This document shows positions 30,911 to 61,476 of a stretch of DNA of 64,000 nucleotides, piece by piece. Made by a program: the position numbers and the translations under genes. Origin of the DNA: Mesostigma viride (taxonomy: Eukaryota > Streptophyta > Mesostigmatophyceae > Mesostigmatales > Mesostigmataceae); assembly GCA_009746045.1 (NCBI GenBank), contig RPFO01002206.1, positions 1-64,000 on the forward strand. The letters are read 5' to 3'. The first letter of the stretch is position 1, and each line of letters begins with the position of its first letter. The notes beneath the pieces were generated by a model, which saw only the letters and a program-made list of their open reading frames with translations, was not told the origin of the DNA and ran no database searches.

Positions 30911-30944
<34 letters not shown>

Positions 30945-33302: not shown

Positions 33303-33647
33303 TTTAGGAGTGTAGGGGTTTAGGGTTTAAGGCCTACCATACACCCGTATGTAAAAATGCAACAACACGCCAAGTCATCCGCCACCATGCAAAAATATAT
33401 AAACACAACTGGTCATCCTCAACAATAATAGTACCCAATCCGCACTTGGCACTTGTCCAGTTTCGTAAGTCCAACGGCCGTTGGCTTTGAGAAATTAAGA
33501 TATGCGAACTGCGCCATTCAGCCAAGCTAAAGTATAGGCTGCCATTGCCCCGTATGTAATGTAGTAGTAAGGTGAACGAACGTCGACAAAAAAACACATG
33601 GGACATACAAACACCAATTTTACACAGTTATGTTTGGAATGACGTAC
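33303..33647 (-). other. 3' region of the transposase-type gene, unresolved
   Basis: After the predicted donor at 33,647 (GTACGTC) the minus strand runs through one palindrome (33,471-33,484). No clear acceptor or terminal exon is evident before the CA array. A short telomere-like phrase (GGGGTTTAGGGTTTA on the plus strand, about 33,315-33,329) sits at the far edge. Confidence 0.45.
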
Positions 33648-36600
33648 CGTAATTTCGGCGTCCACCTTCTTCGCAATTGTGAACCAGCCCTGTCGCGTGT
33701 TGTCCGGATGTCCTTCCCACTTGCCCTTCGTGACCTTTGCGACGCTCAGGTAGCACACGATTGCAGTTAAGGGTTCTCGGTCGTCTGGGTTCCAGAAGAA
33801 GCGTCGGGCGTCCGATCCGGAGGAGGAGCACCTCTCGAAGTATTTTACGTACATTACCCAGTTGCCTTTCTTAAAAACCTCGCCCCCCCCCCGGTATGTT
33901 TGTTTAAACACTCATCCTTGTCGAGTTGGTGGGCGACTCGAACAACTTTCGCCAACCAGTACGGGTGGTCGGGCACATGGTCCTTGTGCCCCCTCTCAGA
34001 TGCGACTGCGACGGCCTCCCCCTCCTGCAAACCACGCCCCAACTCGTTTCTTGCCGTTTGAAGGTGGTTCAGGCGGGTTCCCGGATATCGCGTGGGGTTC
34101 CGCGACTTACTCGCCTGGAGTTTTACAGTCCACGACGAGCTGCTCCAATCATTTGGGCATGTCCTCCACTTGCCCTCTCGGCACTCCGCACAACTGAAGC
34201 ATGAAAAACGCCTGAGCTGAACCACCTCGACCTGCTCGCCCTTTTTGTCCAGTCGCCACTGGTGTGCCGTGGAGATATCTCGGATCGGGCCTCGCTCCTT
34301 ACCGGACGTGGGAATCTGCAATTGTAAATCCATGAAACAACATCACAGCACATTTCCCAACTCCAACGGCCGTTGGCACTCAACAATTATAAGATTTCCA
34401 AACTCCAACGGCCGTTGGCCCTTGGAAACTTTATAAGTACATTTCTCAACTCCAACGGCCGTTGGCACTCTACAATTATATGATTTTCCAGCTCCAACGG
34501 CCGTTGGCCTTATGAAACTTCAAACTGCATCAAGGAAGCTGTCCTCTGTAAAGTGTAACCAGAGACAAATTATAGAACTGCACTTGACCACCAGAAAGCA
34601 ACTGTCTTTACTTACGTTATCGAGAAGAAATGCCCGTCGAACCACGTCCGATTGTGCCGATGGTCGACTCGAGTCTTTGCCGGTTCTCCAATCCCGGTTC
34701 AGGTAGGCCACCAGTGCCTCCACCGTATTCAGGTTCCGATTGTCCTCCTGCATCTGCGCTCTTTTGAGGATGCTTTTCACCGTCCCCCCCTCCCCGTCCG
34801 ACTCCCCCTTCCCATGTCCTGCACATGAGTAGTTCCACTCCAATGTGTCCAAGTCGGGGTCGGCCTCGAGCAGGTCCGCAGCCATCGCCACCACATACCG
34901 GGATTGGAACTGCTCCTTACAGTTGTCGGACCAACTGATCCAGTTCCTCACCTCCACCCCCTCCTCCCTCAGCACCTTAAGGGTATTCTTCATCACGAAC
35001 TCCAGGGTCTGGGCATTCCTCGGTACGTCCTTCCCCATGTAATCGTGCTTCACCCTTTTGATTTCCAGCGATACGGGATCACGGTACATCACGATCACCG
35101 GCATCAGGACGTAACTACTTGGGTACCAGTACTGCGCCTGCAACTGTTTCTGCAGGTGGTCCGAATAGTTCTCCGAGTAGTCCATCAGGACCACCACCGT
35201 TCCCAGCGGCATCACGTCAATGCACTCCTTGTAAGCGTGGTGCTGCCAGGCCCATGTATGGACGTGAATGGCGAATTCCGGGAAGCGCGCCGTAATGAGT
35301 TCATGGAGCTCCGAGAGGGTTGACTTGATGAGTTTTTGCTGCAGGTTCATTTGCGGCGCCACATCCTCCTCCTGCAACACAACACACCCGCGCACCATGG
35401 ATTGACCGAAGAATGGAAGTCAGCAGCTGGGAATTTCCCAACGCCAACGGCCGTTGGAAGTATGAAAGTCTACATATATATATTCAACGATGCAAATATA
35501 CATGCTTACCGTCCCACGGGGCGCTGTGCCCTCCTTTATGAAGTCGAACCACGTGTACTTCTTTGTCCACCCCTTCATCTGGTCCGTCACGATGAACTCG
35601 GAAATCCCACACTCGTTGCACGTCCCTTCCAAGCAGTTCATTGGGACGTTAACGAACGGGCCGCCCGTCCTCCCCCCTCCTTGCCCCCCCTCCCCCCTCT
35701 CAGCCCTGTGGCAGGTGAAACGTCGAACGAAATCATGGGCATTGTCAGGCACGGAAGGGATACCCTCCCTCTCCTCGATCTCCAGCGTGCTCTTCAACTC
35801 CTTGACGCCTTTGGTGAAGGCAGAGAGCAGAGACTCGAAGACGACGTGCTTTTCGCATGCGCACAAGTCCCGGTCCTTCCACACGCCCTTTACGCACTTG
35901 GGCATGAACTCCACGAACTTCGTGTACCCCACCTTGTACCTTGTCCCGTCCGCAGTCGTCACGATACCTCCCTTGTACGGCGACGCGTCAGAACAGAACC
36001 GCTTGTAAATCGTTTCAAGCGAGTCCAAATAGTACCTTCCGCCCTGGGAGGAAATGAGAATCCTGGCGTTTCCCTTCCTTTCGAACTCATTGACCACGTC
36101 CTTATGGTTGGGAGACGCCCTCGTGTTTAGGTCTGACAACCAGTAACTCCCGACGATTTCTTTGACCTCCTCCGGAACCTTGTCCGACCGTAAAGCACGA
36201 GGGGGCGCCTTCAGGGCGGGAAGGTCGCCCCCCATCCTCATTCCCCTTGCGGTCTGGATATCCTTGGGCGTGACGTGAAGCAGCCGCGCGAGAGTGCAAT
36301 GCCCTTGATTGTTCATGCCGTCCTTTCCCAAGCACATTGACAGCACAGCGCACTTCGCGTTCCTGTGCTCATCCGACTTGCCCAATTCCTGGAAACCTTG
36401 CACGATATTAGCGACAACCTCCTGAGCGAAGGACTCCGACGCCTTTCTTTTCAGCGCAGGGCGGTACTGTTTCCCCATAACCTTCACAACCGCACCTGGC
36501 AGCCGCTCAAGCGCCCTCAAGCCTACTGCAGTTTTCGTGTTTTCAGTCTTGTGATTGTTGTCCTTCAGCAAGTATTCCATTGCGCTGGCCATGTCGAGGG

Positions 36601-37528
36601 CAAGTTGGTTGCCCTTGATCTCGACGTACTTGAGACTTTGGTCTTTGTTGTGCGCTTCACCTGCATCCGCGCGCATACAGAATCCAGACGAAGTTTTGAC
36701 ATTTTATCAAATTATTGCTTTCCAACAATTACCCAATTTGTACGTCCCAACGGCCGTTGGACCCCTGAAAGTAAGCCTGAAACACGCCAACACATGCATT
36801 TTCGACACCCAACGGCCGTTGGACCCCCGAAAGTGGGCCTGAAACACGCCAACACATGCATTTTCGACACCCAACGGCCGTTGGACCCCAGAAAGCGGGC
36901 CGAAAACACGCCAACACATGCATTTTCGACACCCAACGGCCGTTGGACCCCTGAAAGTGGGCCTGAAACACGGCAACACATGCATTTTCGACACCCAACG
37001 GCCGTTGGACCCCTGAAAGCGGGCCGAAAACACGCCAACACATGCATTTTCGACACCCAACGGCCGTTGGACCCCTGAAAGTGGGCCTGAAACACGCCAA
37101 CACATGCATTTTCGACACCCAACGGCCGTTGGACCCCTGAAAGCGGGCCGAAAACACGCCAACACATGCATTTTTTACACCCAACGGCCGTTGGACCCCT
37201 GAAAGTGGGCCTGAAACACGCCCTTTACATGCATTTTCGACGTCCAATGGCCGTTGGGCCCCTGAAAGTGGGCCGGAAACACGCTAACACATGCATTTTA
37301 GACACCCAACGGCCGTTGGACCCCTGAAAGCGGGCCGAAAACTCGCCAACACCTGCATTTTTTACACGCCAGAAAGTGAATTTCCGAATCCCAACGCACT
37401 TTTTATAACCTTAACGACCGTTGGAATCCAGAAATTCGACTGAAATGTTTCCATAACACACGTAACAACAAATTTGGTGGTCAACAACCCCGTAAATCCG
37501 TAACCCTGCACGCACCTCCCGCCGCCAT
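33648..37528 (-). CDS. Multi-exon DDE/RNase-H-like transposase-type protein
   Basis: Exons on the minus strand: a 63-nt exon 37,578-37,516 with ATG at 37,528; 36,660-35,510; 35,371-34,616; 34,315-33,648. All junctions are GT-AG with compatible phases. Exon 3 has the motifs MDYSENY (Asp about residue 452), WSDNCKEQFQS (Asp 537) and GHGKGESDGEGG (Glu 578/582), which I read as a DDE triad; this pattern is known from widespread uncharacterised transposon-like proteins of animals and protists. Exon 2 carries Cys clusters (LCACEKH; CLEGTCNEC), and exon 4 another (CFSCAEC...TCP). A C10 run at 33,883-33,892 shifts the frame by one base in exon 4. The 3' end past 33,648 is unresolved. Could be a transposase or a domesticated derivative. 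Confidence 0.7.
34316..34615 (-). other. Intron 3 of the transposase-type gene, with four palindromes
   Basis: Donor GTAAGTAAAG after ...GATAAC and acceptor TTTACAATTGCAG before ATTCCCACG. The 300-bp intron has four perfect CCAACGGCCGTTGG copies at 34,363, 34,405, 34,452 and 34,494. On the gene strand each is followed about 5-7 bases later by GGAAA or GAGAAA. Confidence 0.85.
35372..35509 (-). other. Intron 2 of the transposase-type gene, with one palindrome
   Basis: 138 bp, donor GTAAGCATG and acceptor TTGTGTTGCAG, phase 0 on both sides. One perfect palindrome at 35,444-35,457, about 72 bases from the acceptor. Confidence 0.87.
36661..37515 (-). other. Intron 1 of the transposase-type gene, 855 bp
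   Basis: Donor GTGCGTGCAG follows ...GCGGCGGGAG and acceptor CGCGGATGCAG precedes GTGAAGCGC; joining gives an open frame from the ATG at 37,528. Most of the intron is a 62-bp tandem array bearing the palindrome. Confidence 0.7.
36747..37370. repeat. 62-bp minisatellite carrying the palindrome, 10 units
   Basis: Unit: CCAACGGCCGTTGGACCCCT-GAAAGTGGGCCTGAAACACG-CCAACACATGCATTTTCGACAC. Copies start near 36,747, 36,809, 36,871, 36,933, 36,995, 37,057, 37,119, 37,181, 37,243 (imperfect) and 37,306. Two sub-types alternate (GTGGGCCTGAAACACG and GCGGGCCGAAAACACG), suggesting 124-bp amplification steps. It lies wholly inside predicted intron 1. Confidence 0.93.
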
Positions 37529-37578
37529 AGCTCTTGTTTGCAGCAGGTGGGCCCTGAAGACGCCTTTTGGTCTTGCAC

Positions 37579-40055: not shown

Positions 40056-40570
40056 TTCACCCCATGACACCCATCCATGCATGCCAGCACCCCATGACAC
40101 CCATCCATGCATGCCAGCACCCCATGACACCCATACACGCATGCCAGCACCCCACTACACCCATCCATGCATGCCAGCACCCCATGACACCCATCCATGC
40201 ATGCCAGCACCCCATGACACCCATCCATGCATGCCAGCACCCCACTACACCCATCCATGCATGCCAGCACCCCATGACACCCATCCATGCATGCCAGCAC
40301 CCCATGACACCCATCCACGCATGCCAGCACCCCATGACACCCATCCATGCATGCCAGCACCCCATGACACCCATCCATGCATGCCAGCACCTCATGACAC
40401 CCATCCATGCATGCCAGCACCCCATGACACCCATCCACGCATGCCAGCGCCCCATTACACCCATCCATGCATGCCAGCACCCCATTACACCCATCCATGC
40501 ATGCCAGCACCCCATGACACCCATCCATGCATGCCAGCACCCCATGACACCCATCCACGCATGCCAGCAC
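40056..40570. repeat. 30-bp satellite block 1 (about 17 units)
   Basis: Unit CCATCCATGCATGCCAGCAC-CCCATGACAC. Units vary mainly as ATGACAC/ACTACAC/ATTACAC and ATGCATG/ACGCATG. 30 is a multiple of 3 and the unit is stop-free in several frames, giving repetitive false ORFs with 10-residue periods. Confidence 0.95.
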
Positions 40571-40846
40571 CACACCACATGTATTTATGCATGCCAGATA
40601 ACACAGGCTTTGTGTCTGACTTTTTTTCGTCCCTGTCATATGCGGTCCGCCTCTCTTTTTTCGTGTTTTGTTTTTTGTTCGCATCTTCTACGGTACAACG
40701 CGACATGTTCACGGCGTCATCTGCGCGGTGTCACTAGCTTCAGTTTTGCCGCCACCGCCGCCCCCGGCCGGCCCCATAAAAAAAAAGAAACATCTATAAA
40801 AAGGTACGACGCGTGGTGTGTTGCGTGCTTTTTTTCATGGTTCACC

Positions 40847-41050
40847 CCACTACATCCATCCATGCATGCCAGCACCCCATGACACCCATCCACGCATGCC
40901 AGCACCCCATGACACCCATCCATGCATGCCAGCACCCCATGACACCCATCCATGCATGCCAGCACCCCATGACACCCATCCATGCATGCCAGCACCCCAT
41001 GACACCCATCCATGCATGCCAGCACCCCATGACACCCATCCACGCATGCC
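40847..41050. repeat. 30-bp satellite block 2 (about 7 units)
   Basis: Same unit as block 1, inserted between the fourth and fifth 331-bp bodies. Confidence 0.95.
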
Positions 41051-41332
41051 AGCACCACACCACATGTATTTATGCATGCCAGATAACACAGGCTTTGTGT
41101 CTGACTTTTTTTCGTCCCTGTCATATGCGGTCCGCCTCTCTTTTTTCGTGTTTTGTTTTTTGTTCGCATCTTCTACGGTACAACGCGACATGTTCACGGC
41201 GTCATCTGCGCGGTGTCACTAGCTTCAGTTTTGCCGCCACCGCCGCCCCCGGCCGGCCCCATAAAAAAAAAGAAACATCTATAAAAAGGTACGACGCGTG
41301 GTGTGTTGCGTGCTTTTTTTCATGGTTCACCC

Positions 41333-44300: not shown

Positions 44301-44335
44301 CCATGACACCCATCCATGCATGCCAGCACCCCATG
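41333..44335. repeat. 30-bp satellite block 3 (about 100 units)
   Basis: Same unit. Higher-order structure is visible: a block containing the rare variant ACGCATGCCATGATGCCACT occurs at about 43,925 and again at about 46,390 in block 4 (offset 2465). The inverted-repeat element begins at 44,336. Confidence 0.96.
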
Positions 44336-48136: not shown

Positions 48137-48534
48137 CCAACGGCCGTTGGACCTGAAAAACTAAATGTGGAAAATATGTAATCCTTGTAATTCTGATTGC
48201 AACGTTTTTGCGCATTCCTTGCAGATTCCACGTCGCTACACAAGATTCGCGTCTGTCAACCACCTGCAAGGTACTTGTTTTATTATTATGCGTTTTTTGG
48301 GCAGTCGCTCCCTCTTCTGATTTTCTTGATGCCAACGGCCGTTGGACTTGCAAAATCAGTTTCCATCATTGCTGTTGTGATTTACGTGATGCCAACGGCC
48401 GTTGGACCTCCAAAAAAAAGTTTGTCTTGCCAATTTTTTTTCGCGTTATTTATTATACGCCAGTTTTATCAGCCGTTGCATTACGACGTTTTTATCTCTC
48501 CTAACTTCATTGCTGTAATGCCAACGGCCGTTGG
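48137..48534 (+). other. Four palindromes in leader introns of the 48.6-kb gene
   Basis: Perfect copies at 48,137, 48,332, 48,392 and 48,521. The first precedes an acceptor (TTCCTTGCAG, ending 48,224) of a possible 46-nt leader exon 48,225-48,270. The other three lie in the following intron (donor GTACTTG at 48,271; acceptor CTTCACGTGCAG ending 48,633). Confidence 0.75.
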
Positions 48535-48642: not shown

Positions 48643-48897
48643 ATGGAGAAAGACAAGGACGTTTCGGTGTCGAACCAGGAGAGAGAGGCAGTTGCACGGG
48701 GGGCCAAAAAACTGCCAGCCGAAGTTGTTAGAGCGATTGAGAAATTTTGGGATTCAATTCCAGCCATGGTTGTGATGAAAAAAGATGATGTACAAGCTGA
48801 AGTGGACGAAATGCCGGCCTTAATTTCCGACGATGAAGGGGATGGTGTCAACTTTATTCAACCGGGAAACAAACGTAAACTGAAACGCAAAAAGTAG
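48643..48897 (+). CDS. Small acidic protein with a basic tail, unknown
   Basis: 84 codons plus stop. I chose the Met at 48,643 because a good 3' splice site (CACGTGCAG) ends at 48,633. The sequence starts MEKDKDVSVSN, has a predicted helical middle (AEVVRAIEKFW), an acidic segment (ALISDDEGDG) and a lysine/arginine tail (KRKLKRKK) that could be a nuclear-localisation signal. I recognise no family. It is the first gene of the plus-strand island; the MYND gene follows 180 bases later with no palindrome between, so the two might belong to one transcription unit. Confidence 0.5.
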   Translation: MEKDKDVSVSNQEREAVARGAKKLPAEVVRAIEKFWDSIPAMVVMKKDDVQAEVDEMPALISDDEGDGVNFIQPGNKRKLKRKK

Positions 48898-49077: not shown

Positions 49078-49854
49078 ATGGCCGAGATCGCGAATGAGTC
49101 CGAGTTCGTGAATGAAGTCTACGGAAGCGTCCTTCAAAACGTTTACAAACAAGTTCGCTTTCTGTCGCGTGTCATATTCGAGGAAGTTCGTGTCGCGCAG
49201 GAGAAGACAGGCCGCCACTTGGCCGTTTTATTGGCGTTTGATTCGTTCAGCCAAATGGAGAGGGTTATGTACGCCCAGCTAGCTGATATGAACTTCTGTA
49301 TTCAACAGGGTTTTTTCGTACCACAGATGGATCTAAGAGCGCCAATAGACCCAACGAGGGAGTTCCGCCTTTTGGTGTCGTTCATTACAAAGGGGCCAAA
49401 GATAGAGTTGGGGGAAGAGGAAGGGGCTCAGGTTGGGTGCACCTACGGGCGCGCATTTTACCCGAATGTTACGTCTTCCCTGCGCGTGAGGGCTGACGCG
49501 TGTGTAGGGGCAGAAGTACCCCTCAACATGAACCTTTTCTTGCTCTCTGACCCGATCGTGAGGGATGGGGACCCCATGCGTGGTATGCGAAATTGCTCCA
49601 AGGAGGGGTGTGGGTGCCAAACAGGCCCTCAGAAGTGGTGTAGAGGATGTAGGGATGCCAGATATTGCAGTGAGGAGTGCCAGCGTGCTGACTGGAGTAG
49701 GCATAAGGATAGATGCGAACGTCTGAGGCAAGCAAGACAGGGGCTGGCAGGGGTGATAAGGGGGGTAAACAGGACGACCATACTGGATGGAACTCAGGTC
49801 GACTTCTCTGAGGTCGACTTCTCCTTCACCTTCTACTACGGTTCTTCCTCATAG
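49078..49854 (+). CDS. MYND-type zinc-finger protein A
   Basis: 258 residues starting MAEIANESEF; the ATG follows a pyrimidine-rich stretch and AAAAAG. The C-terminal third has a MYND finger: C173, C178/C180, C188, C191, C197, C201, H209, C213, with the typical YCSEECQRADWSRHKDRC core. MYND fingers bind partner proteins through short proline-containing motifs. The N-terminal 160 residues are a domain I do not recognise, shared with the paralogue at 55,696 (AFDSFSQMERVMYAQLADM against VYDSFASVGRQINLQLLDM). The frame is intact here, unlike the paralogue. No catalytic SET domain is visible, so a role as adaptor is an inference. Confidence 0.85.
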   Translation: MAEIANESEFVNEVYGSVLQNVYKQVRFLSRVIFEEVRVAQEKTGRHLAVLLAFDSFSQMERVMYAQLADMNFCIQQGFFVPQMDLRAPIDPTREFRLLVSFITKGPKIELGEEEGAQVGCTYGRAFYPNVTSSLRVRADACVGAEVPLNMNLFLLSDPIVRDGDPMRGMRNCSKEGCGCQTGPQKWCRGCRDARYCSEECQRADWSRHKDRCERLRQARQGLAGVIRGVNRTTILDGTQVDFSEVDFSFTFYYGSSS

Positions 49855-50202
49855 AAAAACTGGAAATGTAGAGTAATAATTTGCTTTTGAGGTTGGATAA
49901 CTGGACGCATTTTGGATTTGAAATTTGTGTATTTAGTCCTGATTTGTGTTGTAAAATGGTGTAATGGTGAATTCTCTTTTTACTTTGAAATTGGAATAAA
50001 ATTGACCTGATTTGTGTTGTAAAATGGTGTAATAGTGGATTCTCCTTTCACTTTGAAATTGGAATAAAATTGACTTTCGTTTTCTCTCATGCGACTGTAG
50101 CGGGTTAAACAACAATTAGTGACCCAACGGCCGTTAGGGATTGGAAACCTCGCCTAACGTTTGCATATTTTCTTTCCGACAAAACCTCATTTTTTTTTAA
50201 GG
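49855..50202. other. Spacer with a 74-bp direct repeat and one variant palindrome
   Basis: A phrase beginning CTGATTTGTGTTGTAAAATG occurs at 49,938 and 50,010 followed by GGTGTAATxGTG(A/G)ATTCTC and TTGAAATTGGAATAAAATTGAC, i.e. a roughly 72-bp tandem duplication. A palindrome variant (CCAACGGCCGTTAG) sits at 50,124-50,137, followed by GGGATTGGAAACC. Confidence 0.65.
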
Positions 50203-50216
50203 ATGGACGTCGATGT

Positions 50217-51163
50217 ATGTTATGTGCAGAGGGGACAAGTTTGACGTCGGGGCCGATAATGGAAGGGGATATCTCACTGCCGTGGGAAATTTGGACCGAA
50301 GTCGCAGCTTTTATGGAGGCGCCCGACGTAGCCCGCTTTGAAGCAGTTTGTAGAGGGGCTAGGGAAGCGGTGTCGGGGAGGTATGAACCCCAATTCAGCT
50401 TTAAGTTAATTTCTGGGTTCGTGGACGCATTCGGGGATGGTCCTCGTACATTGATAACTGAGTCTCTTTTCCGAGAATTGTATGGCGGGCAAGTAAAGTG
50501 TGCAAGAGCTGATATCACCCCTACACACTCGTCACAAGGGGAATGTATTTTAAGGTATATTGTGAAGAAGTTGAGGAGGTGTTAGGACGCCAGCCAGCAC
50601 CAGAGGGACATGCACGAGCAAGGACGATGGGAGGGTTGTTCAGGTCCCAGCGTGCTGAGAGGAGACGTGTGTTGGAGAGGAATTGGAGGGGGTGGACAGC
50701 TCGCTTACGCCAATTGGGAAAGGAAATGGATGACTTGTACGATAATTATGAACTATGGGGGTTAAGGAGCATTTTCTGGTTCTGCGATACTCCTTATGAC
50801 CCGGATGAGGACATTTTTTTTCCTCCGGGGAGGAGAGCGCGTAGGGAGGCAGAATGGGTGAAGCTTTTGGAGGGGCTGCCTCTGGAGGGGGGAGGAATGG
50901 CATGTGCAGTTCTGATCATGGGATTTGATGAGAACGCAGACATGAAGGCCTTATTAGAGAGGAGGTGTAGGGAGGAGGATATGGCAAGCGTTTTGGTGGA
51001 GTTAGCTATGCAGGTCCTCAGCGGAACAATCTTCACACCGGATTATCTCAAGTTTTTTGGGGGGAAGAAGGCACGCTTGCTGTATTTGGCCGAGAGTAGT
51101 ATGTACAAGTGGAAAGGGGACATGATGTTGTGTTTGGATGAGGATTCTGAAGAGGTTGAATGA
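50217..51163 (+). CDS. F-box-like protein A, split by one frameshift
   Basis: The first frame (50,217-50,585; the best start may be Met at 50,259) contains an F-box-like segment, LPWEIWTEVAAFMEAPDVAR followed by FEAVCRGAREAV. F-box domains bind SKP1 in ubiquitin ligases. The second frame (50,543-51,163) continues with a helical domain containing ELWGLRSIFWF, matching EYIWGLKSMLYF in paralogue B. The frames change near 50,515, in or near ACCCCT, so a one-base indel is likely. The leader has a poly-T plus AAG acceptor-like sequence just before an ATG at 50,203, whose own frame is short. Substrate-recognition function is inference. Confidence 0.7.
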
Positions 51164-52080
51164 TGAAACATAAATTTCATTAATAAATTTTGAATTCTAA
51201 TATTGAATGAAATTCGCCAATTTTTGCTGATGGGTAAGGCTGATAATTTAAAGGCAAATAAAAGAGGGTTTGATAATTTAATTATCTCTAATTCTGTCAA
51301 CTGTCACATATATATAAATTTGACATGAATTCGGCATTTTTTGGATTCCAACGGCCGTTGGACCTCAAAAAACATTTCTAGTGTGGTTAAAAAGTTGTGG
51401 GTATTTTGTTAAATGGAGTGACCAATGGTTGTGATTTATTTGATGCCAACGGCCGTTGGACCTTGACAAACATTGCTAGTGTAGCGCAACAGTGGTGGAT
51501 AATTTGTTTAATGGAGGGGCCGTCGCATCTGCTTGTGATTTTTTTAGGCTGAACAGTCACCGAAAATGTCGACATTATTTCTCCACACCCACAAAAAACT
51601 CGTTCCGGAACTGTTCGAAGCGAATAGCACTGACAGGGTTCGAACCCAGGTCCACATTGATGTTGGGGAGTGAGGTGGGCCAGCCATCATGTTCCGCACA
51701 CAAATCTGGCTCGACTCCGATCCCTGGCAGTGCTCTTCGCTTCGATCAGGTCCGGAACGAGTTTTTTGTGGGGTTGGAGCAATAAATACTCTTTTACCGG
51801 GAAGAGGCGTAATGCCAACGGGCGTTGGACCTGAAAAATTGTGTGGTTAAATCAAGTGACAGAATATGAATGTGATTTATTTTACATTTAAAAACATATG
51901 TTATTTGGGAGGACAAGAAAGTTGGTTTTTGAGGTGTGTGTATCTTACGGTTTTGCGATGGAGGAAACCTCTAACAATCCTGATGCTCTCGTGATCGTGT
52001 TTTGTTTATGTGATATCTGTCAAGGCAGCAAGGAGAGGAGTCGCCCGTTGCTGAGAAGCTGAGGACAACTGTACTGGAAA
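51164..52080. other. Intergenic region with three palindromes and a foldback
   Basis: No coding sequence recognised. Palindromes at 51,348 and 51,446 (perfect) and 51,815 (CCAACGGGCGTTGG). The foldback at 51,588-51,773 is listed separately. A possible 5' leader exon of the next gene ends at 52,081. Confidence 0.6.
51588..51773. repeat. 185-bp foldback with about 55-bp arms
   Basis: The left arm from CCCACAAAAAACTCGTTCCG to GGGTTCGAACCC (51,588-51,647) is an imperfect inverted copy of the right arm ending CCGGAACGAGTTTTTTGTGG (51,714-51,773), with about seven mismatches. The loop is about 65 bp. The left arm includes GGGTTCGAACCC, which resembles a tRNA box B. It may be a MITE-like foldback or a tRNA-derived relic. 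No target duplication is obvious. Confidence 0.75.
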
Positions 52081-52081
52081 G

Positions 52082-54495
52082 GTATGTGGACAAGGACAAC
52101 TGTGGGTGTGGGGGGAACAGCTTGGTGGACACTATTTCTGACTGGTCCGTAAGGCCTCTACCCGAAGGGGGTTGTGAGCCAACGGCCGTTGGAATTGGAA
52201 AAACATTATCATATGCTTTTTATTCGTTTGATAGGGTGGCAAGCAGCCAGGATGTGTCTTTCATGCAGCTTAGTGGTGGCTATTACCATTTTTCTTCCAA
52301 GAAAGGCCTCCAAAAAATCTAGCTGAGCATAAACATGGGTTTGACTGGTTCGTAAGGCATCCACCCTTCCCAGAGGGGGGTTGTGAGCCAACGGCCGCTA
52401 GACTTGAAAAACATTATCATGTGCATTTCATTCCTTTGAGTGGGTTGGCAATCAGCCAGGATGTATCTTTCATTCAGCTTAGTGGTGGCTATTACCATTT
52501 TTCTCCATGAAAGGCCTCCAAAAAATCGAGCTGACCATAAAGATGGGCTTGACTGGTTCGTAAGGCATCCACCCTTCCCACAGGGGGGTTGTGAGCCAAC
52601 GGCCGTTGGAATTGGAAAAACATTATCATGTGCATTTGATTCTTTTCATTTGGTGGCAGTAAGGCAGGATGCGTCTTTCATGCAGCTTAGTGAAGGTTAT
52701 TACCATGTGCCTTCCAAGAAAGGCCTCCAAAAATCTAGCTGAGCATAAAGATGTGGTTGAATGGTTCGTAAGGCATCCACCCTTCCCACAGGGGGGTTGT
52801 GAGCCAACGGCCGTTGGAATTGGAAAAACATTATCATGTGCATTTCATTCGTTTCATTGGGTGGCAATAAGGCAGGATGTGTCTTTCATGCAGCTTAGTG
52901 GTGGCTATTTACCATTTTTCTTCCAAGAAAGGCCTCCAAAAATCTAGCTGAGCATAAAGATGTGGTTGAATGGTTCGTAAGGCATCCACCCTTCCCACAG
53001 GGGGGTTGTGAGCCAACGGCCGTTGGAATTGGAAAAACATTATCATGTGCATTTGATTCTTTTCATTTGGTGGCAGTAAGGCAGGATGCGTCTTTCATGC
53101 AGCTTAGTGAAGGTTATTACCATGTGCCTTCCAAGAAAGGCCTCCAAAAATCTAGCTGAGCATAAAGATGTGGTTGAATGGTTCGTAAGGCATCCACCCT
53201 TCCCACAGGGGGGTTGTGAGCCAACGGCCGTTGGAATTGGAAAAACATTATCATGTGCATTTGATTCTTTTCATTTGGTGGCAGTAAGGCAGGATGCGTC
53301 TTTCATGCAGCTTAGTGAAGGTTATTACCATGTGCCTTCCAAGAAAGGCCTCCAAAAATCTAGCTGAGCATAAAGATGTGGTTGAATGGTTCGTAAGGCA
53401 TCCACCCTTCCCATAGGGGGGTTGTGAGCCAACGGCCGTTGGAATTGGAAAAACATTATCATGTGCATTTCATTCGTTTCATTGGGTGGCAATAAGGCAG
53501 GATGCGTCTTTCATGCAGCTTAGTGATGGTTATTACCATGTGCCTTCCTAGAAAGGCCTCCAAAAATCTAGCTGAGCATAAAGATGTGGTTGAATGGTTC
53601 GTAAGGCATCCACCCTTCCCACAGGGGGGTTGTGAGCCAACGGCCGTTAGACTTGAAAAACATTACCATGTGCATTTCATTCGTTTCATTGGGTGGCAGT
53701 AAGGCAGGATGTGTCTTTTATGCAGCTTAGTGGTGGCTATTTACCATTTTTCTCCTAGAAAGGCCTCCAAAAAATCGAGCTGAGCATAAAGATGGGGCTT
53801 CACTGGTTCGTAAGGCATCCACCCTTCCCACAGGGGGGTTGTGAGCGAACGGCCGTTGGAATTGGAAAAACATTATCATGTGCATTTCATTCCTTTCATT
53901 TGGTGGCAGTAAGGCAGGATCTGTCTTTCATGCAGCTTAGTGATGGTTATTACCATGTGCCTTCCAAGAAAGGCCTCCAAAAATCTAGCTGACCATAAAG
54001 ATGTGGTTGAATGGTTCGTAAGGCATCCACCCTTCCCACAGGGGGGTTGTGAGCCAACGGCCGTTGGAATTGGAAAAACATTATCATGTGCATTTCTTTC
54101 TTTTCATTTGGTGGCAGTAAGGCAGGATGCGTCTTTCATGCAGCTTAGTGAAGGTTATTACCATGTGCCTTCCTAGAAAGGCCTCCAAAAAAACTAGCTG
54201 AGCATAAAGATGGGGCTTGACTGGTTCGTAAGGCATCCACCCTTCCCACAGGGGGGTTGTGAGCCAACGGCCGTTGGAATTGGAAAAAAATTACCATGTG
54301 CATTTTATTCTTTTCATGTGGCAGTAAGGCAGGATGTGTCTTTCAAGCAGCTTAGTGGTGGTTATAACAATTTTTCTGCCCATTAAGGGCCAGAAAAAGA
54401 TGAAGATGTGTTAAAAAAAATGTGTATCCTGTGGCACGAATAATTCGTAGTGAATAGGATGCCTCAAAATACTGTTTTGCCTGGTGTGTATGCAG
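52082..54495 (+). other. Predicted leader intron of F-box gene B, expanded
   Basis: Donor-like GGAAAG|GTATGTGG at 52,081/52,082 and acceptor-like GGTGTGTATGCAG ending at 54,495, five bases before the ATG of the F-box gene. Nearly all of the interval is the 208-bp repeat. This is a prediction from splice-site context only. Confidence 0.45.
52100..54380. repeat. 208-bp tandem repeat with the palindrome, about 11 units
   Basis: Each unit runs from GGTTCGTAAGGCATCCACCC through CCACAGGGGGGTTGTGAG, the palindrome, AATTGGAAAAACATTATCAT, TTCATTTGGTGGCAGTAAGG and TTTCATGCAGCTTAGTG to AGAAAGGCCTCC. Palindromes begin near 52,179 and recur about every 208 bp to about 54,262; a few are mutated (CCGCTAG near 52,390; CCGTTAG near 53,640). 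Short false ORFs repeat in each unit. Confidence 0.94.
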
Positions 54496-54499
54496 GCGA

Positions 54500-55461
54500 A
54501 TGGGAGTAGGGAAGAGCAAACAGAAGAGGCAGACGGAGGACAAGGGCGCCTCCTGCGAGGTTGGAGCTAACAAGAGGACGGAGATGGTGGCTGTGCTTCA
54601 CCTGATGGATATGCCGCTGGAGGTGGTAACGCATGTTGCCAGTTTCCTAGGCTTGATTGATCAGGCACGTTTTGAGTGCGTGAGTCGGAAGGCGCAAGCT
54701 GCGGTTGCTGGGCTTGGCTGTCGATGGCGGGTATTTTGTGTTTCGGTGGCGGACAGAAGAGTGCCACGAGTGCCATTTACGCCGTATTTGTGGTCTACTA
54801 GACCATTTCACGCGTATCTAGGGAAGGAGCAGCTGGCGGAAAGGGGGGGGCGTTCCGAAGGGTCTGTCTGGAGACGTTTGACAGAATGACTGCAGTTCGG
54901 GGTTACTGGGAGGATTGGTCCCGTGACTTTCGAGACGAGAGGTGTATGTGGGGAGAAATGGATTTTGACGTAAGCGAGCTCGAGAGAGACGAGGACTTAA
55001 AACAGCAAGTTGAGGAGAGGGAAAAGGTGGCTAAGGAGATGGAGATGCTGGCTGCTAATGAGTATATATGGGGATTGAAGAGCATGCTCTACTTTTCGAA
55101 CGAACGTACCAATCGCGGTTTTCGTGATTGGCTGACGCCGTCGTACTTGGAGAGTCTTCCTCTGGATGCCGCCGAATTTGGACTGGCGCTGTGGCTGTTG
55201 GACAGAGGGGAGACGTCTACTGATGTGACGTCTGAGGCTTTAAGGCTTCTGGAGGACAGGAATAGAGGGGTTGAGAACATCGTGGCCGAAATTGTCATAC
55301 AAAAATTTACACAGAAAGCTAAAGCTAGTGGGGAATGGGACGAATGGGAAGATGGATCCGAAATCCTTCGCTTTTGCGGGGATGAGAATGAGGTGGAACT
55401 TGATTTCTATATCAGGGATTTGGCAAGGGTGGGGAGTTGGGCCGATTTTGCCCAGAATTGA
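54500..55461 (+). CDS. F-box-like protein B, split by one frameshift
   Basis: The first frame (54,500-54,889) starts MGVGKSKQKRQTEDKG and has an F-box-like segment DMPLEVVTHVASFLGLIDQA followed by RFECVSRKAQAAV. The second frame (54,886-55,461) has an Asp/Glu-rich helical region and EYIWGLKSMLYF, as in paralogue A. The likely frame change is in the G8 run at 54,843-54,850: reading one base off there gives an uninterrupted path (AFRRVCLETFDR) into the second frame. The ATG follows a predicted 3' splice site by four bases. Function as in paralogue A, by inference only. Confidence 0.7.
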
Positions 55462-55603
55462 CGAGAAGCCTCTTTTCTTGTCCGATTGGAGGGATACCTA
55501 GTTCGATTAGGAGTTTTGTGGATGATGTATCAATAATTTTAATCTTCAATTTTGCTATATGAGGCCGTCATCAATCGTTGACTTTGGGTGTGATTTTCTT
55601 GCG

Positions 55604-55617
55604 CCAACGGCCGTTGG
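55604..55617 (+). other. Palindrome in the leader of MYND gene B
   Basis: Perfect copy in the context GTGTGATTTTCTTGCG|palindrome|GATGGAGAAATG. It is 78 bases before the ATG at 55,696, with an acceptor-like AATTGGCGCAG between (ending about 55,687). Confidence 0.8.
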
Positions 55618-55695
55618 GATGGAGAAATGTCAAAAGGGGGGTTGAGTAAAATATAACTTACGTATTACGCACGTGCCAATTGGCGCAGGGGAGGG

Positions 55696-56486
55696 ATGGC
55701 GGAGACGGGCGAGCTGGAATCTTCGACCCGCGCTGCGATTGCCTGCGTGGCAGCAAACGTACTTAACCGGGCTCGCGAGATCCACGGATGGGTACGGCAG
55801 CACGAGAAGCGCCTGGGTCGCCAGTTTGCGGTTTTGGTCGTGTATGACTCGTTCGCCTCAGTAGGACGACAGATTAATCTCCAGTTGCTGGACATGTACT
55901 TCGCCTTGGCTGGCGGATTCTACAAGCCCACGCCGGCGGATCGGGTTCCACTCAATCGAGACGTCGAGTTTCGACTTCTGGTGTCGTATGTCGGAAAGGT
56001 TGGGTGGGACCAGTGGGAGAAAGACCAGTGGGGGAAATTTCCAGACGCGAGTGAGGCGCAGCCGAGATTGACCGTATCGGCGAGAGTAGAGGGGGGGGGT
56101 TTGAAGGTTTCCATTTTACATTCGGGAATTCCGAGTCCGTGAAATTGACGTTTTCACGGATGATCGTTCTCCCGGGGGTGGGAGGGCCGATGCTCGGCTC
56201 GCTTCCAAAGTGTTGCTCGAATCAGGCGTGCTCTGTGATGGAGGGTGTCCACCGCAAGTGCGGGGGTTGTCGAGACGTCCGGTATTGTGCTGCCGAATGC
56301 CAGCGTGCGGACTGGGAGGAACACAAGAAGTGGTGTACCAAGTATCGTGAGGCGAGAAAGTCTCTCAGCACTATGCACGGCGACGTTACAGACAGCTGGT
56401 CTGGTGTCAATTTGGCCGGACTTGTAATTCGGATGGGGGGTGAAGTGCATTTTAAGTTCAAAGGTGAAATGTTCAAGGTTTTTTGA
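55696..56486 (+). CDS. MYND-type zinc-finger protein B, frameshifted
   Basis: The first frame (55,696-56,142) starts MAETGELESS and carries the N-terminal domain shared with MYND protein A. The second frame to 56,486 carries the MYND finger (CSNQAC...CGGCRDVRYCAAECQRADW then EEHKKWC) and a short C-terminal tail. The frames join if one base is gained or lost in the G-run near 56,092-56,099; the second frame is open back to that run. Either assembly indel or a recent inactivating mutation. About 60 residues between the N-terminal domain and finger are less conserved than in protein A. Confidence 0.75.
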
Positions 56487-56506
56487 GGGGACTAAATCGT
56501 ACCCAA

Positions 56507-56585
56507 GGGCGATTTGTGAGGCGATGTCCGCGCTGGGGGAACAGTACCCCTGTTCGACTGCGTGAGGGGAATGGATTCTGCGACT
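56507..56585 (+). pseudogene. Remnant of the 3' end of the 56.9-kb gene family
   Basis: The stretch from TTTGTGAGGCGATGTCCGCG to ATTCTGCGACTGAAG matches the last roughly 80 coding bases of the gene at 56,871-57,485 (TTGGTGAGGTGATGTCCGCG...GCGACTGAAG). The following GTGTGATTTTC and palindrome match as well. It is a leftover from a tandem duplication whose upstream part is gone or replaced by MYND gene B. Confidence 0.75.
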
Positions 56586-56614
56586 GAAGGCATTTTGGGT
56601 GTGATTTTCTTGCG

Positions 56615-56830
56615 CCAACGGCCGTTGGAACTTGCAAATTAGCGTTTGATTTTCTTTGCACCCGGAAGTAGGGTGTGGTTTGCCACGTGGCACCATGGAT
56701 GTAATTAATAAATGCATAATAAAACATTTTTCGTGCGCCAACGGCCGTTGGAGACTGAAAACTAGTGTGTGCTTTGTGCGCGTAATAAATCTTAAAACTC
56801 TTGTTGTTTTTTCAAGCCAACGGCCGTTGA
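56615..56830 (+). other. Three palindromes in the leader of the 56.9-kb gene
   Basis: Copies at 56,615, 56,738 and 56,817 (the last ends TTGA). The whole segment 56,507-56,870 is duplicated at about 57,405-57,740, including the phrase GCCACGTGGCAC(C/T)ATGGATG. Confidence 0.85.
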
Positions 56831-56870
56831 CGGTGAGAAATGTATATCAAACGGTGTCGGTGGGTTGCAG

Positions 56871-57485
56871 ATGACGTTCTACAGGACGGAGGGGGGCGAG
56901 TGGATCAACTTGGAAGACAGGCTTCTGGGAGTGGTTAAGAGCGCGCTCAGGCTTCTGCCGGACATTAAGCTGGATTTTAAGCCCAAGGGTGAAAGGTCTC
57001 TTTTGAGACCGGATGTCGCGAAGGCCGCGGCTCTTGTTTTCAATATCGAGGGTCGGGGACTCCCAAAGCCGACCGTAGAGCCATTTGAGGAGGTGCTTGT
57101 GAGGTGTGGTGCTATAAGGCCCTATGATCCATCAATACCCAGCCCAATTTGTTTTCAGTCGATCGATGCTGATGGTAATGAAAGTTGGATACCGATGACG
57201 CGGCCATATGATAGGGGAGAAGGGTTTAAGGGTTTAGGGGAGGTGGGACGGTTCGAATGGGTCATCTTGAAGGACGGCAAGTACTTCAAGCATCACACTG
57301 ACCTGATCATCGACCGGCTGTTCGTGTCTGCTGGAGATTGCATGTTCTGGTTGAGGGAATACGTGCATGAGTGGGGACCCGACGGTGTTGACGAGTTTGA
57401 GAAAGCGGTTGGTGAGGTGATGTCCGCGTTGGGGCAGGAGTACAAGTTCGAGCGCGTGACTGACGCGAATCGATTATGCGACTGA
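56871..57485 (+). CDS. Unknown protein, 204 residues
   Basis: The start codon chosen is the ATG immediately following GGTGGGTTGCAG, a strong 3' splice-site match. Begins MTFYRTEGGEWINLEDRLLG. Mixed alpha/beta composition, no Cys cluster, Trp-rich C-terminal half (GRFEWVILKDG; CMFWLREYVHEWG). I recognise no family. It belongs to the same head-to-tail island and shares leader and 3' sequences with the gene remnant upstream. Confidence 0.6.
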   Translation: MTFYRTEGGEWINLEDRLLGVVKSALRLLPDIKLDFKPKGERSLLRPDVAKAAALVFNIEGRGLPKPTVEPFEEVLVRCGAIRPYDPSIPSPICFQSIDADGNESWIPMTRPYDRGEGFKGLGEVGRFEWVILKDGKYFKHHTDLIIDRLFVSAGDCMFWLREYVHEWGPDGVDEFEKAVGEVMSALGQEYKFERVTDANRLCD

Positions 57486-57510
57486 AGTGTTGGGTGTGAT
57501 TTTCTTTGCG

Positions 57511-57701
57511 CCAACGGCCGTTGGCAGCTGGAAAGTTGGGTGTGATTCGCCACGTGGCACTATGGATGTAATCAATAAATGCATAATGCCAATTTTTTTC
57601 GTGCATTTTTCGTGCGCCAACGGCCGTTGGAGGCTGGAAAATGGTGTGATTTTCGTGGGCGTAGTAAATCATTCTTGTTGTTTCAAGCCAACGGCCGTTG
57701 A
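57511..57701 (+). other. Three palindromes in the leader of the 57.7-kb gene
   Basis: Copies at 57,511, 57,617 and 57,688 (the last ends TTGA, as in the upstream duplicate). The last lies 40 bases before the AG that abuts the ATG at 57,741. Confidence 0.85.
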
Positions 57702-57740
57702 CGGTGAGAAATGTGTATCAAACGGTGTTGGTGGTCGCAG

Positions 57741-58523
57741 ATGGCGGTCAAATGCACGGTTGCGTGGTGCCAGGAAGCGAGAGCAGGAGGGGATGACTTG
57801 TGCGTGCGTCATGTCAGCGTGCGAACGGGAATGGCAGGGAGGGTGAAGGATTTGTTTGCAAAAAAGGGGGGATGTATCGCCCGGGATTGCCAGCTTCCAT
57901 TCGGGACGGATTGCATGCCTTTTTGTGATGGACACGCCAAGTTGTCAGGGGAGATGCAAGAGGTGATCAAAGGAGGCTTGTTGTTTGTGAATGGCGAGTC
58001 CAGTGCTGGTGAAGGACCTCTTGTCCTGAGTTTTGAGGTGGACGGTGCTGGAAGTCTGGAAAGAATGGCGGTCCGGTCGCGGGAATGGATGTTGAATCAC
58101 CCTGACTTTGACTCGTATGCCTACTGCCAAGGTTTCGGGGACGCCGTTTTTACATGGATGCTGTGCTCGGAGGATGACGTGCATGCGATTGTTTCGCATG
58201 ACGACTTGGATATCGCAGGCGCCATGGGCGCAGACCTGTTGTTGTATTTCATGATTGGATGGGGTTGCGGATTTTTGGAAGGTGATTGGTGGGTCCCGCA
58301 CCTCGCAAGGCTTACTTTTGCGGTCGGCGAATTGCCTGTACCTGTTGAAGTGTCAAAAACTCGTGTGGAGATGGCTGCCGTTCTGGCATCGGGGGTTAAG
58401 CGCCAAGCCCGATTTGCCATGACCGTTGTTGCTGATGCTGAGGGGGAGGAAATTGAAAAGGTCGTGGAAAGGGTCGTCCTGGCCTCTGCTTTGGTGGAGA
58501 GAGCAAGGAATGCATGCGACTAG
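57741..58523 (+). CDS. Putative zinc-binding protein with two C-x4-C...C-x2-H modules
   Basis: 260 residues; the ATG directly follows GTGGTCGCAG. Module 1: C5-x4-C10-x10-C21-x2-H24. Module 2: C45-x4-C50-x11-C62-x2-H65. Similar modules are in the genes at 59,134 and 59,942, so this is a local family. The rest is a mixed domain with LVLSFEVDG, YAYCQGFGDAV and a Trp/Gly-rich stretch (MIGWGCGFLEGDWW), then a helical tail. Zinc binding is inferred from ligand spacing only. I know no named family with this arrangement. Confidence 0.65.
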   Translation: MAVKCTVAWCQEARAGGDDLCVRHVSVRTGMAGRVKDLFAKKGGCIARDCQLPFGTDCMPFCDGHAKLSGEMQEVIKGGLLFVNGESSAGEGPLVLSFEVDGAGSLERMAVRSREWMLNHPDFDSYAYCQGFGDAVFTWMLCSEDDVHAIVSHDDLDIAGAMGADLLLYFMIGWGCGFLEGDWWVPHLARLTFAVGELPVPVEVSKTRVEMAAVLASGVKRQARFAMTVVADAEGEEIEKVVERVVLASALVERARNACD

Positions 58524-58536
58524 GTGTTTTTGGTCG

Positions 58537-58550
58537 CCAACGGCCGTTGG
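58537..58550 (+). other. Palindrome in the leader of the 58.6-kb gene
   Basis: Perfect copy, context TTTTTGGTCG|palindrome|ACTTGCAAAATG, 45 bases before the ATG at 58,595. Confidence 0.8.
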
Positions 58551-58594
58551 ACTTGCAAAATGTCCTGTGAGCTGAGTCCGTTTCTTAACTTGCC

Positions 58595-58939
58595 ATGGAC
58601 GTCGGTTGTGCAGGGGCAGGGTGTAGGATGGAGTGCGGAAAAGAAGGAAAGGAAGGGGGGGAGACTACAAAGGAAAACCTGATAGAGATTGTGGAGGCCG
58701 AACTGGAAGACCTGCCCGATCTGGTTCTCGAAGAGGACGGGCAATTGCACGCTGAACGTCTTGATGGCGTGGGCATGATGATGTCGGAGGTTGATGGGTA
58801 TGGTGGAATTGCTAAAGGTGTATTGCGTAAATTGAGGCGTGAGGAGGATGTGGGGACTCCGGCTCATGTTTTGGTCAGTTTTATGAACGACAATTGGGGT
58901 CGAATGCAACCCACTAAAGATGGGGAGGATGTTGACTAG
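58595..58939 (+). CDS. Small acidic protein, unknown
   Basis: 114 residues from the ATG at 58,595. An alternative start at 58,628 (MECGKEGKEG) lies behind an acceptor-like GGTTGTGCAG. It is strongly acidic (ENLIEIVEAELEDLPDLVLE) with a few N-terminal cysteines (CAGAGCRMEC). No family recognised. Confidence 0.45.
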   Translation: MDVGCAGAGCRMECGKEGKEGGETTKENLIEIVEAELEDLPDLVLEEDGQLHAERLDGVGMMMSEVDGYGGIAKGVLRKLRREEDVGTPAHVLVSFMNDNWGRMQPTKDGEDVD

Positions 58940-59031
58940 AATGTGATTTTAGGATGAATGTAAATTTATTTAATAAAGAAGAATCATTTGGAAAAAATCG
59001 CCTGATGGTGTCAAGTTTTGTGCGTCTAAGG

Positions 59032-59080
59032 CCAACGGCCGTTGGGGTGTGTGGAATTTAACAGGGCCAACGGCCGTTGA
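59032..59080 (+). other. Two palindromes in the leader of the 59.1-kb gene
   Basis: A perfect copy at 59,032 and a TTGA-ending copy at 59,067, 54 bases before the ATG at 59,134. Confidence 0.8.

Positions 59081-60950: not shown

Positions 60951-61476
<526 letters not shown>

Follow-up and report, generated by a model that had tools for sequence, protein, structure and literature searches.

The 64-kb window analyzed here, meaning the whole stretch of DNA under study, comes from the alga Mesostigma viride and carries many copies of one 14-letter palindrome, CCAACGGCCGTTGG. The locus raises the question of what this palindrome is and how it came to be repeated. A preliminary description had placed about 50 copies in introns and gene leaders, and had offered three ideas for their nature: an introner-like mobile unit, a splicing or branch-point hairpin, or the binding site of a dimeric protein.

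An abundant palindrome with dyad-symmetric flanks

The repetition itself is confirmed, with 39 exact cores in the window versus none in 100 shuffles. When up to two mismatches were allowed, 50 sites were recovered, in agreement with the earlier count. Exact copies at 2211, 2470 and 2623, and near-copies at 901 and 1950, had been absent from that description. The 440-Mb genome holds 9,685 exact cores, compared with ~1.6 expected and none for a reversed-word control. Note that these genome-wide counts do not amount to independent trials, because copies within arrays and elements share descent and because the assembly holds homologous stretches twice (contigs C1684 and C1).

The flanks are also conserved, as had been proposed, but the earlier wording (ATTTTC-N5/N6-GAAAAT, ~36 bp) is better replaced by the 34-bp form TTT-N7-CCAACGGCCGTTGG-N7-AAA, mostly TTTY-N6-B-core-V-N6-RAAA. 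This form is present in 24 of the 39 window copies, and TTT and AAA occupy exactly mirrored positions in 7,691 of the 9,685 genome copies (79%; control, 0). One base is nearly excluded at the core edge: CCAACGGCCGTTGGT, with a T right after the core (equivalent to a preceding A), was found just four times against 19,370 edges genome-wide. Beyond 34 bp, conservation drops to background among 18 flank-distinct representative window copies. This set, the sets of 30 and 21 copies and the orientation test described below all merge or omit copies from arrays and from paralogous leaders.

The proposal that copies differ mostly outside the core is borne out when clusters are compared with one another, and likewise within the L114 arrays, where 32 units have a mean divergence of 0.018 in the core and 0.108 in the next 20 bases. 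In the 208-bp array, however, the core is not exceptionally constant, since 16% of 14-base windows are as low in divergence. Paralogous leaders that were compared agree at 42/42 core positions and at 176/206 positions outside the core. We set aside the core-conservation figure for the 62-bp array, which omits the variant copy at 37244.

Scans with Rfam and for tRNAs gave no match. The exact core occurs in 108 IMG/VR stretches, and each of the 80 listed contains a single site, in line with chance. A motif common to known viruses or prokaryotes was considered and rejected, with the dyad pattern found 0 times in IMG/VR and 0 times in GTDB. Our search of the PMC literature found no paper on the palindrome itself, and none among the matches listed described a nuclear palindrome of M. 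viride.

Sites in predicted introns and gene leaders

The sites of the window and the genes near them are collected in Table 1. The minus-strand gene is presumably DDE-transposase-like, judging by a motif. Pfam gave no match for pieces of this gene, and its predicted spliced protein, compared with 5.8 billion proteins, had no match at E 1e-3 among the 8000 scored. Three complete introns are predicted (37515-36661, 35509-35372 and 34615-34316), each bounded by GT..AG with the reading frame kept. In that order, they contain ten sites (one of them with a single mismatch), one site and four sites. These are the counts that had been reported for the first three of four introns. For the fourth, said to hold at least one site, we found a donor at 33647 and the site at 33471 downstream of it, but an acceptor was looked for without success. 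Without splicing, the site at 35444 would fall within the open frame 36676-35420.

Table 1. Palindromes and genes of the window, in order of position.
Feature	Position	Strand	Basis or remark
Five further sites (3 exact, 2 with 1 mismatch)	901..2636	.	minus orientation preferred by 4/5; no gene recognized
Palindrome past fourth predicted donor (33647)	33471..33484	-	exact-core search and intron prediction
Predicted multi-exon gene, presumably DDE-transposase-like	33648..37528	-	DDE-like motif; predicted GT..AG introns
Four palindromes, 42/47/42 bp spacing, predicted intron 3	34363..34507	-	exact-core search
Lone palindrome, predicted intron 2	35444..35457	-	exact-core search
62-bp tandem array, 10 palindromes (9 exact), predicted intron 1	36746..37361	-	exact/near-copy search
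Four palindromes before small ORF 48643-48897	48137..48534	+	exact-core search
84-aa ORF, acidic stretch and basic tail	48643..48897	+	ORF translation
MYND-finger gene	49078..49854	+	domain match
Palindrome (1 mismatch) before F-box gene	50124..50137	+	near-copy search
F-box gene, two overlapping frames	50217..51163	+	domain match
Two palindromes in 98-bp imperfect direct repeat	51348..51459	+	
Tandem array of 11 units of 208 bp, with 8 exact and 3 near-copy palindromes	52167..54365	+	
Second F-box gene, two overlapping frames	54500..55461	+	
Palindrome before second MYND gene	55604..55617	+	exact-core search
Second MYND gene, frame broken near G run	55696..56486	+	
Leader of ORF 56871, paralogous to 57485-57741, with three palindromes (one at 1 mismatch)	56615..56830	+	
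Element ORF, CAG immediately before ATG	56871..57485	+	
Leader of ORF 57741 with three palindromes (one at 1 mismatch)	57511..57701	+	
Cys/His-rich ORF	57741..58523	+	
Palindrome in 71-bp gap between two ORFs	58537..58550	+	exact-core search
Small acidic ORF	58595..58939	+	
Leader of ORF 59134 with two palindromes (one at 1 mismatch)	59032..59080	+	
Cys/His-rich ORF, CAG immediately before ATG	59134..59718	+	
Cys/His-rich ORF without leader palindrome; inner in-frame ATG 59942 directly after CAG	59918..60730	+	

On the plus strand, an island of compactly ordered ORFs extends from 48.0 to 60.9 kb. None of its 29 sites overlaps the ten ORFs examined, which span 53% of the island, in line with the claim that the palindromes lie outside coding sequence; with the 208-bp array counted once, the figure is 0 of 19 (P ~5e-7). 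A site is present in the gap preceding 8 of the 10 ORFs, and the site ends lie 31-223 bp before the ATG; the earlier description had given 40-130 bp before most ATGs. For one of the ORFs, 57732 served as the start, the first ATG being at 57741. The site is missing from the leaders of the MYND ORF (49078) and of the ORF that starts at 59918. Within this island of the window, the palindrome is thus both enriched before ATGs and excluded from coding sequence, as a viral-type promoter motif would be.

Database searches with the proteins of the window gave nothing convincing in PHROGs, and for the MYND protein there was no phage match and none confirmed in IMG/VR. The product of 57741..58523 has a 98% identical counterpart (over 72% of its length) in the EukProt set labeled 'Prorocentrum lima'.

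The flanks are oriented with transcription in the genes of the window. In a leave-one-out test, the flank profile chose the gene strand for 16/16 island sites and for 7/8 sites of the minus-strand gene, three of the latter by a small margin.

A large repeated element

By sequence comparison, the palindrome copies that could be placed belong to a large repeated element with more than 100 copies, a placement that rests on the first listed matches. An exact 28-mer from the MYND gene at 49078..49854 occurs 314 times in the genome, and one from exon 3 of the DDE-like gene occurs 130 times. Of 143 leader places in all, 50 were listed, and 45 of these have the form of the site at 57511. We compared the 40 of those 50 places whose contigs fall within the MYND list; some contigs contribute two places. 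The MYND word lies upstream on the same strand, 5.8-10.5 kb away, in 28/40, and is absent within 15 kb in 12/40.

For the DDE-like gene, the comparison took 40 of the 130 DDE-like places, 100 of the 314 MYND places and 37 leader places. The MYND word was found within 45 kb of 17/40 DDE-like places, where ~2.6/40 would be expected by chance in any arrangement, and 16 of those 17 show the divergent arrangement of the window; it was absent within this distance from the other 23/40. Where a leader site lies within 60 kb of a DDE-like place, the arrangement of the window recurs in every case (10/10). In two further copies of the MYND region, the 3.8 kb inspected (one piece with 1,440 N) lacks an exact palindrome, and a different repeated motif is present upstream. 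The preliminary description had regarded placement independent of introns and leaders as evidence against its proposal. This could be checked in part: both settings occur, and the placed sites are united by the element.

We infer that the element is mobile and virus-like. As to mobility, the large multi-gene element is dispersed, but in the cases seen the palindromes multiply by tandem duplication and not by insertion of a short intron unit. No match to a capsid, polymerase or packaging gene was found among the window ORFs scanned, and the termini of the element were not found. Capsid matches are abundant elsewhere in the genome (150 of 507 candidates scored). These scored loci share no small contig up to C1070 with the listed MYND words (100 of 314), and on C1, C446 and C667 the two lie more than 1 Mb apart. 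The nearest listed pairs of DDE-like word and capsid are separated by ~101 kb (C1546) and 168 kb (C1468). Among the matches listed from a literature search on polintons, endogenous viral elements and capsids, none named M. viride.

A protein-binding element is the favored explanation

Our favored reading, which we hold to be probable by a modest degree, is that proteins bind the palindrome as a directional site with dyad symmetry, and that this site serves the genes of a virus-like element present in high copy number. A sequence-specific, symmetric (dimeric) DNA-binding protein, encoded by the element or by the host, would contact both CCAACGG half-sites through the major groove as well as the A/T triplets about one helical turn outward from them. 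Sites in leaders and introns would then act as promoter-proximal or enhancer elements for the genes of the element, and the tandem arrays would be multi-site enhancers or replication/partition sites. Among the three original ideas, that of a dimeric-protein binding site is best supported, by the 34-bp dyad, the exclusion of one edge base, and the unrelated DNA beyond 34 bp in the 18 copies.

No DNA-binding gene was identified. Weighing against a binding element are the two island leaders without a site, the two further MYND-region copies that lack an exact palindrome, the leader and DDE-like places with no MYND word nearby, the slightly greater RNA folding stability of real copies described below, and the unexceptional core conservation of the 208-bp array; the strand orientation could also stem from common descent of a unit. 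Sites inside introns, and the location of site 57511 at 25 bp past a stop codon, would be unusual for a simple promoter.

Local tandem duplication and competing explanations

In the cases inspected, copy number grows locally via tandem duplication. The window contains four arrays, with unit lengths of 153, 42/89, 62 and 208 bp, and the predicted introns of L114 contain 46-bp arrays. On C1, the homologous copy carries a perfect tandem duplication of 118 bp within the equivalent of predicted intron 2 (site 35444), and two copies of an island leader differ by having one unit or three 46-bp units (one with 1 mismatch). All comparable sites up to 51.4 kb, the 62-bp array excepted, are common to the homologous copy; the comparison ends there, with 51446 and 51815 at or in N. 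These arrays and duplications, together with the ordinary core conservation of the 208-bp array, would suit a selfish minisatellite, that is, an amplification-prone unit spread in tandem through introns and spacers, where it is tolerated, and purged from exons, with no regulatory role. Nevertheless, lone copies with unrelated flanks retain the exact core and mostly the dyad, one base is almost totally absent from the core edge, and the core of the L114 arrays diverges less than the spacer. We regard this explanation as possible but unlikely.

Somewhat less probable still is that the palindrome segment forms a dual promoter-intron module. The next ORF would start from its own leader or be spliced to the preceding ORF, multi-exon genes could arise from ORF cassettes sharing one dyad, and other subfamilies would use other leader motifs. 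Pointing to such a module, an in-frame ATG lies 6-27 nt upstream of 5/5 predicted acceptors that follow palindrome introns.

The same ATGs, the agreement of site orientation with the genes, and the occurrence in 8/10 island ORFs of CAG or AAG no more than 12 nt ahead of an ATG (in one ORF only at an inner in-frame ATG) would also fit a signal in RNA, in which a CCAAC/GUUGG hairpin guides splicing or translation from tens of nucleotides before the acceptor or ATG. The core hairpin is predicted at -4.4 kcal/mol, and the predicted folds of real 42-base copies are a little more stable than those of copies with shuffled flanks (-11.1 versus -9.7 kcal/mol). However, bases flanking the core pair less than expected, compensated changes were seen in 0/11 near-copies of the window, the GGCC loop, which a hairpin leaves free to vary, differs in only 1/11, and TTT and AAA sit past an unpaired gap. 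The longer RNA stem is thus disfavored despite the slight gain in folding stability, and an RNA-level role is improbable.

We give marginally less credence to a replication or partition site, at which arrays would bind an initiator or segregation protein of a self-replicating element in the manner of oriP or baculovirus hr sequences. Multi-copy arrays of dyad sites accompanied by single sites near genes, the high copy number of the element and the subfamily with a different repeated leader motif agree with this role. But no replication gene was recognized in the window, an extrachromosomal form is without support, and an origin would not need orientation with transcription.

Finally, an introner-like or MITE-like short unit that makes introns by insertion is rejected as the main account and very improbable: although one gene has sites in all of its complete predicted introns and a second has them in arrays within predicted introns, clusters are dissimilar beyond ~34 bp with no matching ends in the 18 window copies, no clean insertion was seen, the sole presence/absence difference inspected in detail is the 118-bp tandem duplication in an existing predicted intron, and the comparable sites up to 51.4 kb, apart from the 62-bp array, are shared with the homologous copy. 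Introners (PMC9860276) likewise place repeated sequence in introns, but here no short inserted unit with TIR/TSD was seen and the spread involves tandem duplication and a large element.

Comparison with known systems and implications

The putative protein-binding element and its surroundings resemble several known systems. Like giant endogenous viral elements and polinton-like viruses, the repeated element is a high-copy, multi-gene unit in an algal genome, with MYND and F-box genes compactly ordered, but none of the capsid loci listed lies close to a listed MYND copy. Binding sites of MYB proteins (MSA, consensus YCYAACGGYY) are short and degenerate. The core consists of CCAACGGCC and its mirror, and two CCAACGG halves set head to head fit that consensus, as for MYB3R; what recurs here, by contrast, is a 14-bp sequence with a restricted edge and spaced A/T triplets. 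Baculovirus hrs are imperfect palindromes that occur in tandem arrays and elsewhere. Tandem arrays of dyad sites, as in hr and oriP, are present in the window and in L114, but here they are not known to belong to a free virus.

In medusavirus (PMC8557863), the promoter-like palindrome GCCATRTGAVKTCATRTGGYSRSG lies 40-70 bp upstream of the starts of 95% of immediate-early genes. The likeness is that of a palindrome in intergenic leaders, tens of base pairs before the starts of many genes without known function (PMC8557863). The sequence differs, however, and the M. viride palindrome is an exact 14 bp with spaced TTT/AAA that is also found in predicted introns, in tandem arrays and in thousands of genomic copies within a dispersed element.

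If a 34-bp dyad repeated thousands-fold in one nuclear genome is indeed tied to such an element, M. viride would offer an unusually clear case of a selfish element with its own regulatory code in introns and leaders. The dyad is a ready bait for the putative binding protein, and offers a way to delimit and date the element. It may thereby bear on how virus-like DNA has shaped the genome of an early-diverging streptophyte alga.

Abundance and edges of the palindrome

The 14-bp palindrome CCAACGGCCGTTGG (the core) is present in the 64-kb window as 39 exact copies, or 50 when up to two mismatches are allowed, which fall into three groups at 0.9–2.6, 33.5–37.4, and 48.1–59.1 kb. Tandem arrays with unit lengths of 153, 42/89, 62, and 208 bp hold four sets of these copies. 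When 18 flank-distinct window copies picked with an exact core were compared, conservation was confined to runs of T (−10 to −7) and of A (+20 to +23), with background levels further out. Written as TTT-N7-core-N7-AAA, this 34-bp dyad is matched by 24 of the 39 exact window copies. Very large satellite or simple arrays surround the palindrome groups (see table).

The genome searched comprised 439.9 Mb in 2,243 contigs, in keeping with the PacBio-based assembly published for M. viride NIES-296 (48.6 Gb at 113-fold; PMC6947507). Exact cores number 9,685, a count that does not represent independent trials because array copies and element copies have common ancestry and some stretches are present twice in the assembly (contigs C1684 and C1); the reversed-word control yielded 0, and ~1.6 would be expected by chance (440 Mb over 4^14). 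Allowing one mismatch raised the total to 12,162 (control, 88), and thus near-copies with a single change are a minority. Both outer triplets accompany 7,691 (79%) of the exact genomic cores. The exact palindrome was absent from the Copia-like remains in the window and from three arbitrary 10-kb stretches of C1, a contig on which just two palindrome clusters occur up to 5.09 Mb among the places listed.

The 15-mer formed by the core plus T occurs only 4 times genome-wide, versus about a quarter of 19,370 core edges expected by composition, and this rarity explains why A-core-T with dyad flanks is missing from the genome. Pairing in window copies is likewise below chance at −1/+14, −2/+15, and −3/+16 (3, 1, and 5 of 21 versus 5.2, 5.2, and 8.2). 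Together, these observations indicate that the palindrome is kept at 14 bp and that its edge bases are restricted. On sequence grounds, this looks like protein recognition, unlike a stem, which would profit from extra length. As a counterpoint, real 42-base copies fold slightly more stably than flank-shuffled versions (−11.1 versus −9.7 kcal/mol).

Orientation relative to genes

A flank profile built from the plus-strand island (ORFs at ~48–61 kb) picked the gene strand at 16 of 16 island sites in leave-one-out scoring; for the minus-strand gene it did so at 7 of 8 sites, with a narrow margin at three of the seven. Therefore, the site has a direction in common with the genes here, although the core itself is non-directional. 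Shared ancestry of units might contribute to this orientation.

An in-frame ATG lies 6 to 27 nt before the acceptor predicted for each of five palindrome introns, three from the window and two from L114, whose predicted introns hold 46-bp arrays. Similarly, CAG or AAG occurs within 12 nt before an ATG in 8 of 10 island ORFs, with CAG|ATG in four, one of which depends on starting at the inner ATG (59942). The two exceptions are the F-box ORF at 50217, with AAG 15 nt ahead, and the ORF at 58595, which lacks either. This pattern, which was recognized post hoc in palindrome introns and island ORFs, suggests either leaders that double as introns or a genome-wide acceptor habit.

Local multiplication and conservation of the core

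A homologous stretch on C1, which is either another haplotype or a duplicate, is 94 to 97% identical to the window across three aligned parts. Outside the 62-bp array, every comparable site up to 51.4 kb is common to both (two sites at 51.4–51.8 kb lie at or in N on C1), and degenerate sites keep the same base. Predicted intron 2 of the DDE-like gene (33.6–37.6 kb) is longer in C1 owing to a perfect 118-bp tandem duplication bearing the palindrome. A second island copy at C1:5.08 Mb carries three 46-bp units, one of them mismatched, versus one in the window, and a few kilobases beyond it a predicted multi-exon gene has two predicted-intron arrays, one with 11 exact sites and one with 16. Thus, where growth in palindrome copies is seen, it is local and tandem.

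Two paralogous island leaders, in window positions 56486–57741, agree at 42 of 42 core positions and at 176 of 206 elsewhere. They are 85% identical outside the cores, and the ORFs behind the two have no BLASTP match to one another; by these comparisons, leaders here seem more conserved than coding sequence. Per-site divergence in the L114 arrays is 0.018 for the core and 0.108 for the next 20 bases, based on 32 units whose choice by loose core match somewhat favors the core. Core conservation is not unusual in the 208-bp array.

A large recurrent element

Across the genome, a 28-mer taken from the MYND gene has 314 occurrences and another, from exon 3 of the intron-bearing DDE-like gene, has 130. 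A pattern for sampling rare forms of the site matched 143 places, and 45 of the 50 listed, on about forty contigs, were the exact leader site at 57511. Co-placement was judged on listed subsets of these matches. The MYND word lies upstream on the same strand, 5.8 to 10.5 kb away, at 28 of 40 compared leader places and not at the other 12; the window distance is ~7.9 kb. It is also within 45 kb of 17 of 40 compared DDE-like places (~2.6 expected by chance in any arrangement), 16 of which have the divergent arrangement of the window. The leader site is within 60 kb of 10 of 40 compared DDE-like places, in the window's arrangement each time. This recurrent co-arrangement indicates that the 33–38 kb gene and the 48–61 kb island are parts of a single large recurrent element, the ends of which were not found.

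Frames of three element genes break near G runs at 33884, 54842, and 56100, reflecting either assembly error or decay. The RpoB-like (bacterial-type RNA polymerase beta) fragment resides in nuclear DNA, recurs in the second island copy, and is inferred to be of plastid origin. ARAGORN found no tRNA, including at the trnS-like remnant.

Additional sequence features
Feature	Location	Strand	Remarks
Plastid trnS-like remnant	window 3195–3275		by eye
Satellite/simple array, 40-bp unit	3549–19090
Copia-like retrotransposon remains	26315–31193	−	RVT_2 and rve just under Pfam cut-offs
Satellite/simple array, 30-bp unit	40058–46648
Satellite/simple array, 8-bp unit	47214–48011
Inverted-repeat element	51590–51775		tRNA B-box-like GGGTTCGAACCC between arms; by eye
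RpoB-like fragment	60951–61277	−
Satellite/simple array, 6-bp unit	62794–63994
Alternative MYND leader	L146:2409–3170; L147:2470–3230		4–5 units with GCCCGCCGTCGTTTC, mostly then TTCGATGTCGAA

Subfamilies and possible viral affinity

Partial-length matches to the MYND protein came from a Mesostigma viride gene model (85%) and from a protein in the EukProt "Prorocentrum lima" set (94%). EukProt proteins P0001 and P0003, filed under this dinoflagellate, are 94 to 98% identical to element genes; our guess is cross-contamination.

In two 3.8-kb pieces with other MYND copies (L146 and L147), likeness to the window starts at the MYND start, and upstream are a repeated motif of another kind and a further small ORF that encodes a basic stretch. 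The exact palindrome is in neither piece (L147 has 1,440 N). Subfamilies of the MYND-bearing element differ in this way.

The MYND and F-box genes would fit a viral nature of the element. No capsid or polymerase gene was recognized among the window ORFs scanned. A whole-genome search for the NCLDV major capsid family PF04451 gave 507 first-look candidates and 150 scored matches (those shown, above the cut-off and free of internal stops), often two or three per locus, and 0 of 14 control genomes had any. The listed capsid loci are not close to any listed MYND copy, and among the matches listed the shortest distances between a capsid locus and a DDE-like word are ~101 kb on C1546 and 168 kb on C1468.

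Possible role of the palindrome

The half-site resembles MYB/MSA-type sites. Among the published cases compared, the nearest is the medusavirus palindrome before start codons, located 40 to 70 bp ahead of them and marking 95% of immediate-early genes (PMC8557863). In the mechanism proposed for M. viride, a symmetric protein would bind the palindrome site, which would be a promoter-proximal or enhancer element.
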